This document shows positions 34,032 to 37,947 of a stretch of DNA of 41,632 bases, piece after piece (position 1 is the first letter of the stretch; the number at the start of each line of letters is the position of its first letter). Below the pieces are notes generated by a model. That model worked only from the letters and a program-made list of their open reading frames with translations, searched no databases and was not told where the DNA came from. Source of the stretch: a virus; IMG/VR virus record IMGVR_UViG_3300030410_000018, positions 1 to 41,632 of that record; one strand, given 5' to 3'. The position numbers and the translations under genes were made by a program.

Positions 34032-34601
34032 TCAATAGCCTCCTGCATTCCGTATTTTGCCCCAGCAGGTGCCGCAAAAATACTTCCAGCCCCATTTTTG
34101 GCTATACGGTTTCATTGATTTTGCAAGATCAATCGAGGTCAAAACTTCATCAAGACCTAATTTATCTATAAACCTTTTTAGACTTTCAAAATCGGATTTT
34201 TGGATGCTCTCTATATTGTAGCATTCGCAAAAGTGATTTAATGCCTCTTGAGCATCTGCATCTAATCGCATGCGACGGGCCTTCATTATGGCCTCATATC
34301 CAGCTATTTGAGATTCACGTTCAATGACTTCTGCGGCCCTCTCTGAAAGGCTTAGTGGCGTAATTGAAAGAGGTATGTTTGACTTACCGCTATTGCATGG
34401 CTGGCAAGCGGTTACGAGATTATCAATAGATGTCTCACCACCACGCGAAACCGGATTAATATGATCACAATGCAAAATAACATTGGGAGGTGTTGCCCCA
34501 CAATAAACGCACTCAAACCCGTCCCGCTTGAAAACTTCAAAGCGCATCCGTTTTGGAATGGCTACTCGGACAAACTTTTCTTGTATGACGTTCATGCTCA
34601 C
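34032..34601 (-). CDS. HNH endonuclease
   Basis: The GTG at 34601 has GGAGG 7 nt upstream and overlaps the methyltransferase stop (GTGA). The protein is 189 aa. The HNH core has CVYC (31-34), HCDH (44-47), N61 in SIDNLVTACQPC and a second CxxC at 66-69 binding structural zinc, followed by SGKSN. The C-terminal helical region (about 90-185) may confer specificity; it also contains Cys pairs. It lies between a methyltransferase and the initiator. It could be a homing-like nuclease or part of a modification-related pair; family knowledge cannot decide. Confidence 0.8.
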   Translation of the reverse strand: MSMNVIQEKFVRVAIPKRMRFEVFKRDGFECVYCGATPPNVILHCDHINPVSRGGETSIDNLVTACQPCNSGKSNIPLSITPLSLSERAAEVIERESQIAGYEAIMKARRMRLDADAQEALNHFCECYNIESIQKSDFESLKRFIDKLGLDEVLTSIDLAKSMKPYSQKWGWKYFCGTCWGKIRNAGGY

Positions 34602-35356
34602 AGCATCACCTCCTGCTTAACGGGCTTGGGTTTTTCGATGAAGAAATCGGGCTGCTTCAGGGCGTCGGAAATGCGCTTGACGGCAATGTCAAAATATTTA
34701 GGCTCGCGCTCAATTCCAATGAACTTGCGGCCCATTTTAATGCAAGCGACGCCGGTCGTGCCTGAGCCCATGAAGGGATCGAGGATGGTCTGCCCAATCG
34801 CAGTAAAATCATCTAGCAGTTCAGCCATTAAACTTACTGGCTTTTCTGTTGGGTGCACTCCATGCCGCTCGCGTGAATTGGTGTTATGAGTATATACACC
34901 GCGCTTTCCGCCTGAGTACCATTTGCTTATCCCAATCCCGCACCATCCTGCGGCGATGCATTCATAACCTTGAGCTGGGCCTTGCCCATTAAATTGAGGC
35001 GAAGAATCCGGTTTAATCCAAGCCATACCACGCTTATATTTAATCCCAGCCGCTTCGATTACATCACGCCAATCAGAAACTGCCTCAACCTGACAAAATG
35101 CCAACACCCACCCAAAACATTTTTGCGCAGCCCAATCGGGAATCACGCACCTCAATTCATCATTGATCGCCTCAAAATCCAATGAGTCTGGAATCCCTGA
35201 TCTAATTGATTTTTGAGTTCTGCTAATCGGATTATGGGCTTCTTTTTCAAACGGCGGGTCTGTTATGATATGATGCACCTTGCCCAGCGTGGGCAAAATG
35301 TCGCGGCAATCCCCCTCATAAATTGTGACGCCATCAGCTAGTGTTTCAATCCTCAT
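34598..35356 (-). CDS. DNA amino-methyltransferase (N6-adenine/N4-cytosine, beta class)
   Basis: The ATG at 35356 overlaps the upstream stop as ATGA and gives 252 aa; longer in-frame starts would run into the upstream gene. The catalytic motif DPPF is at 33-36 and the SAM motif DPFMGSGTT at about 193-201, followed by GRKFIGIE. The order DPPF first, FxGxG last defines the beta class of CcrM-type and related enzymes. The target-recognition region is probably 105-165. No cognate restriction enzyme is adjacent except an HNH gene, so it may mask phage DNA or alter host gene regulation. Confidence 0.9.
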   Translation of the reverse strand: MRIETLADGVTIYEGDCRDILPTLGKVHHIITDPPFEKEAHNPISRTQKSIRSGIPDSLDFEAINDELRCVIPDWAAQKCFGWVLAFCQVEAVSDWRDVIEAAGIKYKRGMAWIKPDSSPQFNGQGPAQGYECIAAGWCGIGISKWYSGGKRGVYTHNTNSRERHGVHPTEKPVSLMAELLDDFTAIGQTILDPFMGSGTTGVACIKMGRKFIGIEREPKYFDIAVKRISDALKQPDFFIEKPKPVKQEVML

Positions 35357-35547
35357 GGCTGAACATCGCCACATTCGCAGTGCCAACAAAAAACGCTCCA
35401 CTGCCCATGCGTAGGGCCTAGGTGGGCAACAGGAAGCCACCCGCGCCGCAAGAACTCATCAAGCCTTGACCATCGGACATAACGGAATAGGCCAGTGCGG
35501 ACGGGCTGTGTCATGCTTGCGCTATAGCTCTCGATAGTCTTGATCAT
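35353..35547 (-). CDS. 64-aa protein with C-terminal Cys/His motif
   Basis: The ATG at 35547 overlaps the upstream stop as ATGA. Residues 25-64 read RLDEFLRRGWLPVAHLGPTH then FCWHCECG, a Cys/His cluster that could bind one metal. The protein lies directly before the amino-methyltransferase, to which it is coupled. I recall similar short proteins in rhizobial prophages but no function. Confidence 0.6.
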   Translation of the reverse strand: MIKTIESYSASMTQPVRTGLFRYVRWSRLDEFLRRGWLPVAHLGPTHGQWSVFCWHCECGDVQP

Positions 35548-36630: not shown

Positions 36631-36830
36631 TTCCGCAGCTCCTTTTCACGCAGGGATTTTACAAACGCCTCGAACTCAGCCGGATGGCGATCAAATAGCT
36701 CATGCTGTTTGATGATGTTTTCGAGCAGATTCTTATAAAATTCACGCTCCCGCTCATTGCGGAAAAACATCTTCGGGTTATCGCCTTGTAGCCATGCCGA
36801 GCGCAGAACTGATACGGTTGTCGAACTCAT
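36627..36830 (-). CDS. 67-aa charged helical protein
   Basis: The sequence has a SWLQGD-like start (VSVLRSAWLQGDNPKMFF) and a charged helical remainder (RNEREREFYKNLLENIIKQHELF, KSLREKELRK). It is coupled by ATGA to both the C5 methyltransferase and the DnaA-like gene. Function unknown. Its start lies inside the left copy of a 19-bp repeat that recurs at the start of the methyltransferase. Confidence 0.6.
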   Translation of the reverse strand: MSSTTVSVLRSAWLQGDNPKMFFRNEREREFYKNLLENIIKQHELFDRHPAEFEAFVKSLREKELRK

Positions 36831-36840
36831 GCTGCGACCT
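36822..36840. repeat. Left copy of 19-bp direct repeat bracketing the C5 methyltransferase
   Basis: CGAACTCATGCTGCGACCT is identical to 37586-37604, offset 764 bp. Both copies span a stop/start junction, so the upstream protein ends EVAA and the next starts MSS in each case. Confidence 0.85.
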
Positions 36841-37594
36841 CCGCAGCCGCGATTGCGCGCCCTATTAATTCAGGAATCTGAGGGACTACGGCGTTGCCAA
36901 GTGACTTACATCGGTGTGCGCCGGTGGGAACCCCATCAATAATGAGGCGAACTCCGGATTGGTCTTCCCAATCCTCCCAACTGCAAGCACCGACCAATGG
37001 GCCAGCATTAATTGATGACCACCGCGCATCCGCAAATGAACCATTTCTGGCGATATTTTGTAATGCCACTTCGGGCCGTCGCTCGCCTGCGGGGTAGGCA
37101 ACGATCCAAACTCTGTCCCGATTGTGCGGCGCTCCGATATTCGATGCTGAAATAACTTCCCATTCCGCATCATACCCGACCTCGGAAAGGTCGCCGAGAA
37201 CTCTGCCAATTCCGTTAGAAAGCAATGCTGCGACGTTCTCCACGATGACGTATTTTGGTCGAAGCTCGCCAATAAGACGGGCATATTCGAACCATAATCC
37301 AGACCGAGCGCCATCAAGTCCGCGCCCTTGGCCTGCTGTTGATATATCCTGGCACGGGAACCCGCCGCAGATTGCATCAACGGCAATTCCATCTGCGGCA
37401 AGTCTTGCTGCGGTGAGTGTTCTAATGTCATGATAGCAAGGAACCCTTGGCCAATGTTTAGCCAAGACCTTGCGCGGAAATGGCTCAATTTCGCAAAATG
37501 CGACGGTTTCAAAAGCACCCGAACGCTCTAGGCCAAGCGAGAAACCCCCGATGCCAGAGAACAGGTCTAAGAGCTTGTAGGGCTGCGAACTCAT
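36827..37594 (-). CDS. C5-cytosine DNA methyltransferase
   Basis: This 255-aa enzyme has the ordered C5 motifs. Motif I is LLDLFSGIGGFSLGLE (8-23). GGFPCQD, with the catalytic Cys, is at 77-83; ENV is at 119-121; NRDRVW (motif VIII-like) is at 158-163; GNAVVP (motif X-like) is at 233-238. The target-recognition segment between motifs VIII and IX is short (about 165-215), so the enzyme is smaller than typical Dcm. It is coupled by ATGA to the VRR-NUC gene upstream and to the 67-aa gene downstream. A 633-nt open frame is nested in the +1 frame over its middle and 3' part. It probably protects phage DNA. Confidence 0.9.
   Translation of the reverse strand: MSSQPYKLLDLFSGIGGFSLGLERSGAFETVAFCEIEPFPRKVLAKHWPRVPCYHDIRTLTAARLAADGIAVDAICGGFPCQDISTAGQGRGLDGARSGLWFEYARLIGELRPKYVIVENVAALLSNGIGRVLGDLSEVGYDAEWEVISASNIGAPHNRDRVWIVAYPAGERRPEVALQNIARNGSFADARWSSINAGPLVGACSWEDWEDQSGVRLIIDGVPTGAHRCKSLGNAVVPQIPELIGRAIAAAEVAA
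36886..37392 (-). CDS. Nested frame inside the C5 methyltransferase gene (candidate overprinted gene)
   Basis: An open frame in the +1 register on the same strand runs from at least 37518 to 36886. I list the ATG at 37392 (168 aa) because the segment with recognisable pattern starts just after it; 37377 is another possible start. The product contains SRARIYQQ, SSWRTSQ, FSATFPRSGMMRNGKLF, PTPQASDG and NPEFASLLMGFPP. From memory these are the ordered motifs of short phage proteins often annotated beside C5 methyltransferases. The DNA under them is that of PCQD, ENV and the motif VIII-IX region in the other frame. It could be a real overlapping gene, or a conserved shadow of the methyltransferase. 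No strong SD is visible. Confidence 0.35.
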   Translation of the reverse strand: MELPLMQSAAGSRARIYQQQAKGADLMALGLDYGSNMPVLLASFDQNTSSWRTSQHCFLTELAEFSATFPRSGMMRNGKLFQHRISERRTIGTEFGSLPTPQASDGPKWHYKISPEMVHLRMRGGHQLMLAHWSVLAVGRIGKTNPEFASLLMGFPPAHTDVSHLATP

Positions 37595-37604
37595 GCTGCG
37601 ACCT
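37586..37604. repeat. Right copy of 19-bp direct repeat bracketing the C5 methyltransferase
   Basis: Identical to 36822-36840. It spans the end of the VRR-NUC gene and the start of the methyltransferase. Confidence 0.85.
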
Positions 37605-37947
37605 CTCGCGTTTCAATTCCCCATCGGTCGAATGCCGCCCGCACATCGTCTATTGATTTGGCGACAATCCAGGGAACGCCCTGCGCATCGAGGCGGGCCA
37701 TAAATTCCTTTTGCTCTTTTGATAAATCTCCGGTGTCTGTTTTCACCTCAATATAAAATGGTTCACATTGATCAATAACAACAAGATCGAGAGCGCCCTT
37801 TAACAAGCCTGTGTAGACCGCTAGAGCCCCTTGTGATTTTGAACAGTGGATGCCATTTGGAATTGAGTGGCAAATCGCTTGAGGCGCGCAGGCGCGTATC
37901 CAACCCACAATCGCATTCTGTATGATGGCTTCCAAATTGCGGGCCAT
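37591..37947 (-). CDS. VRR-NUC domain nuclease
   Basis: This 118-aa protein has the compact PD-(D/E)XK-type layout: IPNG (29-32), GALDLVVI with D54, FYIEVKT with E67 and K69, then KEQKEF with Q79. A C-terminal helix follows with VPWIVAKSIDDVRAAFDRWG. VRR-NUC stand-alone proteins are common in phages and act as structure-specific nucleases, for instance on branched replication or packaging intermediates. It lies between the GapR-like gene and the C5 methyltransferase and is coupled to both. Confidence 0.88.
   Translation of the reverse strand: MARNLEAIIQNAIVGWIRACAPQAICHSIPNGIHCSKSQGALAVYTGLLKGALDLVVIDQCEPFYIEVKTDTGDLSKEQKEFMARLDAQGVPWIVAKSIDDVRAAFDRWGIETREVAA

Follow-up and report, generated by a model that had tools for sequence, protein, structure and literature searches.

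The YGGCCR C5 methyltransferase M.EcoHK31I carries motifs I–VIII and X on one polypeptide and motif IX on the other, and its target-recognition region (TRD) is predicted to lie on the large subunit (PMC3404938). Its small subunit, of 176 aa, is reportedly encoded in an alternative frame inside the gene for the 309 aa large subunit (Lee, Kam and Shaw 1995, Nucleic Acids Res. 23:103). M.AquI is split after motif VIII into a catalytic and a specificity polypeptide, the small subunit carrying motif IX as well as motif X (PMC3404938). The locus described here is like M.EcoHK31I in its two-polypeptide distribution of motifs, with a methyltransferase of 255 aa (P0) and a nested putative protein of 181 aa (P1).

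We analyzed a viral DNA stretch of 41,632 nucleotides (the window), a tailed-phage contig. Besides terminase and capsid genes it carries an HNH gene and genes for an N4/N6 methyltransferase and a DnaA-type helix-turn-helix protein. The P0 ORF spans 768 nt on the minus strand. A first-pass annotation, made from sequence alone, had reported an open frame lying wholly inside this C5 methyltransferase gene, in the +1 frame of the same strand. This claim held exactly: the maximal nested ORF occupies 36886..37518 (minus strand; 633 nt, 210 aa, GTG start), and its product contains every motif that had been quoted. A VRR-NUC nuclease gene (37591-37947, minus strand) lies directly upstream of the methyltransferase, and its stop codon shares bases with the methyltransferase ATG. 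The features of the locus are as follows.

36827..37594, minus strand: P0, C5-cytosine DNA methyltransferase of 255 aa with motifs I–VIII and X; TRD and motif IX are unrecognisable in frame 0.
37445..37448, minus strand: AAGG, tentatively a weak SD sequence, 13 nt upstream of the P1 ATG (SD enrichment in the family, sequence inspection).
36886..37431, minus strand: P1, putative +1-frame nested protein of 181 aa counted from its likely ATG, with a TRD-like region and motif IX (phrog_1008, E=1.2e-17; dual-frame selection in the family).
37346..37357, minus strand: P0 motif IV, PCQD, overlapping SRARIYQQ of P1 (sequence inspection).
37159..37188, minus strand: P1 FPRSGMMRNG, predicted beta strands 86-89 and 92-95 (AlphaFold), conserved in the A3 alignment.
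37097..37132, minus strand: P0 motif VIII region, APHNRDRVWIVA (sequence inspection).
37075..37101, minus strand: P1 LPTPQASDG module, the single TP module in the window; relatives carry 0-6.
36959..37090, minus strand: VIII–IX segment, which codes in the P1 frame and is an unselected linker in P0 (codon-position test, P0 disorder).
36922..36960, minus strand: P1 motif IX-like NPEFASLLMGFPP, conserved in the A3 alignment, with a weak PDB profile match and in frame with motif X in loci L088 and L090.
36878..36904, minus strand: P0 motif X, SLGNAVVPQ, where selection is back in frame 0.

P0 matched PF00145 with 155.5 bits (curated cut-off 22), over residues 6-171 only and reaching only position 165 of the 324 in the profile. 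It meets the catalytic-core criterion (motifs I–VIII) of PF00145 C5 methyltransferases; no TRD or motif IX was found in P0 itself, as judged from PF00145 coverage, AlphaFold disorder and the lack of selection on this segment in frame 0. The AlphaFold model of P0 had a pLDDT of 84.7, with residues 188-223 mostly below 50 and the motif X helices at 86-94. Over ~172 columns its fold matched the M.HaeIII and M.HhaI catalytic domain; those single-chain enzymes, unlike P0, also contain the TRD and motif IX.

The nested product matched no Pfam or NCBIfam family in our profile searches. It did match PHROG 1008 (labelled 'DNA methyltransferase') with E=1.2e-17 over residues 29-120, as did all 76 P1 proteins scanned, and tblastn with the nested protein returned 106 phage records. 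At the first ten loci examined, the methyltransferase lay in the -1 frame relative to P1 and scored better, an outcome that a reading-frame shadow would also give. Under the shadow explanation, the +1 frame is conserved only through the methyltransferase DNA and no protein is made. In its favor, P0 is highly conserved over motifs IV–VIII, so any frame should look somewhat similar (the +2 frame slightly exceeds the permutation expectation), and each P1 match sits on a methyltransferase.

The window by itself cannot carry the case. Synonymous permutation of P0 in the window alone gave 4.3 expected +1 stops across codons 54-225, with P(0)=0.002, and a probability of 0.0015 for a run of at least 213 codons. 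We regard this open run as unusual rather than overwhelming, a possible indication that is suggestive only; that the nested ORF is far beyond chance rests on the family-wide tests. The nearest P1 to that of the window has only about 47% identity; without a close relative, the selection pattern of this copy is weakly resolved and the claim for it rests on the family.

We therefore rely on a shadow test in which the P0 protein and its codon usage were kept while synonymous codons were permuted, at 77 non-redundant viral loci chosen only by methyltransferase similarity. From PCQ to motif VIII (motifs IV–VIII) the +1 frame held 14 stops where 230 were expected; from motif VIII to IX there were none, with an expectation of 83. 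No such depletion affected the N-terminus of the same loci or the part beyond motif X. The depletion was sharply bounded, running from P0 codon ~55-65 to ~225, and stops in the third (+2) frame were near normal across this stretch. The control of 164 neighbouring ORFs showed no deficit, with 1618 stops against 1641 expected. We also observed a +1 ATG near codon 50-60, with an SD-like sequence 5-16 nt upstream, at 29 loci, compared with 8.8 ± 2.5 (maximum 15) in permutations. Because depletion begins at codon ~55-65 of the methyltransferase and SD-like sequences are enriched at +1 ATGs, P1 probably starts at the ATG at 37431 (181 aa) rather than at the GTG at 37518, and the GTG-start extent first given for the nested protein is corrected accordingly.

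In the reciprocal test, loci were picked by P1 and the P1 codons were permuted, using 80 viral and 80 bacterial or archaeal genome loci (145 usable; 77 viral, 68 genome). Between motifs VIII and IX, frame 0 contained no stops against 233 expected at the viral loci, and 12 against 206 expected at the genome loci, 11 of these 12 being in a single split case (L268). The +1 depletion and the reciprocal frame-0 depletion together show that both frames are kept open.

Substitutions showed which frame is selected in each segment. In nucleotide alignments, variation followed P0 third positions in the N-terminus and after motif X, was intermediate over motifs IV–VIII, and followed P1 wobble from VIII to X. 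Between VIII and IX, variable sites were shared.62/.25/.13 over P0 positions 1/2/3, which is the P1 wobble pattern. Among 78 disjoint pairs, this segment favored P1 in 77 of 77 informative pairs, and the N-terminal control favored P0 in 71 of 72; the pair test aligns VIII–IX in the P1 frame, and the nucleotide-alignment version is the unbiased one. Pairwise +1 similarity also exceeded the shadow expectation, but +2 similarity was mildly raised too, and we do not use it as main evidence. At the family level, then, dual coding is shown: both frames are under selection, and the selected frame switches along the gene. The P0 frame is selected only for motifs I–VIII and X, and its amino acids between VIII and IX form a linker that need only stay open.

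These results all but exclude the shadow explanation. Synonymous permutation leads one to expect hundreds of +1 stops that relatives lack, constraint between VIII and IX acts on the P1 frame but leaves the P0 amino acids free, and SD-like sequences are enriched at the internal ATG. We rejected the shadow on the combination of synonymous permutation, control genes, the third frame and codon positions.

The first-pass annotation had associated the nested frame with stand-alone phage proteins found beside C5 methyltransferases, and had suggested that the family arose by overprinting or that the gene is dual-coding. The first of these failed: PHROG 1008 is the nested frame itself, the methyltransferase lay in the -1 frame of P1 at all 160 P1-selected loci (80 viral, 80 bacterial or archaeal), and none of the 160 had a stand-alone P1. 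Dual coding held and is strongly supported, both frames being open and the selected frame switching along the gene. Overprinting held in part, probably for only the N-terminal half of P1, over motifs IV–VIII. Of the checks it had proposed, the database search yielded PHROG 1008 and the 106 phage records but no Pfam or NCBIfam match, and the examination of synonymous sites in relatives revealed +1 constraint in stop depletion and codon positions. It had named shadow-only homologues, stops in the nested frame of relatives and a lack of excess constraint as grounds for refutation; none of these was met. At the family level this is a real gene inside a gene and no coincidence, and the same nested layout recurs in phages and bacterial genomes; translation of P1 is inferred.

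A second explanation is a programmed frameshift from frame 0 to +1, giving a fused methyltransferase with TRD and motif IX without internal initiation. It is supported by phiBT1, Samy and AvatarAhPeg, in which TRD, IX and X are all in +1 and a single shift near motif VIII would complete the enzyme. However, +1 depletion starts at codon ~55-65, far upstream of VIII, where a shift near VIII needs none; an SD-like sequence is enriched at the +1 ATG; and motif X is in frame 0 in most relatives, requiring a second shift back. We consider a frameshift very unlikely and retain internal initiation of P1.

P1 family members have an SGMMRNG-type conserved segment, 0-6 'TP' modules and the motif NPxWVEWLMGFPxGW. 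The only matches of the P1 profile in the PDB were the C5 methyltransferases 4onj and 4onq, at the motif IX-like stretch and weakly (E=1.5). In L088 and L090, the P1-type motif IX shares a frame with motifs I–VIII and X, and PF00145 spans positions 2-322 of 324, compared with 2-167 in a typical member. From this in-frame occurrence with full-length PF00145 and the weak PDB profile match, NPxWVEWLMGFPxGW of P1 is very likely methyltransferase motif IX. The phages JKSyngboy and Neville likewise have an NPxWVEWLMGFPxGW-type motif in frame 0, but there PF00145 stops short of it. The AlphaFold model of P1 alone was poor (pLDDT 62.6, pTM 0.30), and a fold search with this low-confidence model found no match. 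Two loci (L179 and L038) differed by 4% at the nucleotide level in catalytic DNA, yet showed 20% P1 identity between VIII and IX. VIII–IX cassettes are swapped among loci that hardly differ in their catalytic DNA and can be unrelated to one another, which is the behavior one would expect from a TRD.

A third explanation is that P1 is a real overlapping protein with another role, such as anti-restriction, outside the methyltransferase. In its favor, P1 has no Pfam family or fold match, and the evidence for its assigned role consists of a short motif and genetic pairing. Against it, P0 has no folded TRD and no motif IX while P1 has motif IX; the P1-type motif IX of L088 and L090 belongs to a full-length PF00145 methyltransferase; P1 was never found without P0 (160 P1-selected loci); and the swapping of VIII–IX cassettes is consistent with a TRD. 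We judge a separate role unlikely and favor P1 as part of the methyltransferase.

In our proposed mechanism, frame 0 would give P0, a C5 catalytic subunit whose motifs I–VIII and X are joined by a linker of unselected amino acids. An independent start inside P0, at about codon 54, would give P1 in the +1 frame, with a target-recognition region and motif IX. Most likely, P0 and P1 would together make up a single DNA C5-methyltransferase in which P1 is the specificity subunit, and the enzyme would modify the phage's own DNA. We assign the recognition part to P1 because the TRD/IX place of P0 is disordered and unselected while P1 carries motif IX. Dual selection, the selected frame of each segment, the internal-start signal and the invariable pairing of P1 with P0 are shown; that P1 is translated in this phage, pairs with P0 as a heterodimer, supplies the TRD and sets specificity, and that the enzyme protects phage DNA, is inferred, there being no expression or activity data. 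The phage probably has two modification enzymes, since a second DNA methyltransferase of N4/N6 type (PF01555) is encoded at 34598-35440 (minus strand).

The two halves of P1 appear to differ in origin. Its C-terminal half looks like the methyltransferase's own TRD and motif IX moved to another frame, and the N-terminal half, over motifs IV–VIII, is probably the only true overprint. One possible history is that the C-terminal half of an ordinary methyltransferase was displaced into +1, after which an N-terminal extension was overprinted over IV–VIII.

Layouts vary among relatives. The M.AquI distribution was seen in L006-L008, L106 and L268. Named phages that show it are phiBT1, Samy, AvatarAhPeg and Firecracker, where P0 ends after VIII and TRD, IX and X are in +1; in Samy, Firecracker and AvatarAhPeg the two pieces of the split gene have ORF annotations of their own, either adjacent or overlapping. 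In JKSyngboy, Neville, L088 and L090, the TP modules remain in +1 and motifs IX and X have returned to frame 0.

Several other loci had individual peculiarities. In an enterobacterial/Vibrio subgroup (L004, L005, L100, L272) the +1 frame is open almost from the methyltransferase start, and P1 may span nearly the whole gene; in three of the four, an ATG begins 4 nt after the methyltransferase start codon begins (GTGAATG/TTGAATG). The methyltransferase of the E. coli PCP07014 prophage (L273) has a pseudogene annotation and an internal stop; close to this position the nested frame is broken as well. In Mycobacterium phage Llama (L009) the methyltransferase is frameshifted and annotated as two genes (74/75), and both frames shift together. 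L082 (2197-3108) and L048 (about 2943 onwards) have extra Cys/His-rich +1 sequence beside motif IX, fused to P1 in L082; this insertion looked HNH-like by eye, but Pfam did not support an HNH identity and we did not use it as evidence.

Long same-strand overlapping genes have rarely been established in prokaryotes and their dsDNA phages, and this one is supported by reciprocal selection tests in well over 100 loci. The arrangement explains the PHROG 1008 proteins and the apparent absence of a TRD in phage C5 methyltransferases of the P0 group. It would imply that half of the enzyme is lost in annotation, where a single ORF is usually kept, and that the annotated gene expressed alone would be inactive. 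It also offers a natural system for studying two proteins that diversify in shared DNA. On a bolder reading, which we consider more likely than not, phages and bacterial genomes hold a large class of C5 methyltransferases that has gone unrecognised, in which the catalytic gene encodes TRD and motif IX in its alternative frame; cassettes would be exchanged by recombination with both frames open, and specificity would evolve in a dual-coding segment.

P0 meets the criterion for an M.EcoHK31I-type large subunit (motifs I–VIII and X without IX), and P1 that for the small subunit (IX in an alternative frame), the identity of motif IX resting on L088 and L090 and the weak PDB match. Two differences remain. 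M.EcoHK31I is part of a restriction-modification system, whereas P0/P1 comes from a phage, and we identified no restriction gene next to it; and the TRD of M.EcoHK31I is predicted on the large subunit, whereas our segment is selected in the small-subunit frame, which counts against a full parallel. Like M.AquI, P0/P1 has a catalytic/specificity split after VIII, but motif X stays on P0 in frame 0 in the window, and the M.AquI-type criterion (IX and X on the small subunit) is not met there. The PHROG 1008 label, which P1 matches, is silent on the +1 location in a methyltransferase gene and on the missing catalytic motifs. In the literature searched we found no earlier report of such an overlap in phages, M.EcoHK31I being the only precedent. 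The architecture thus has a precedent, while its spread in phages and the evidence for dual selection are likely to be new, and we regard P0 and P1 as likely forming a two-subunit C5 methyltransferase of M.EcoHK31I-type architecture, its assembly and activity inferred, with the specificity subunit overprinted on the catalytic gene.
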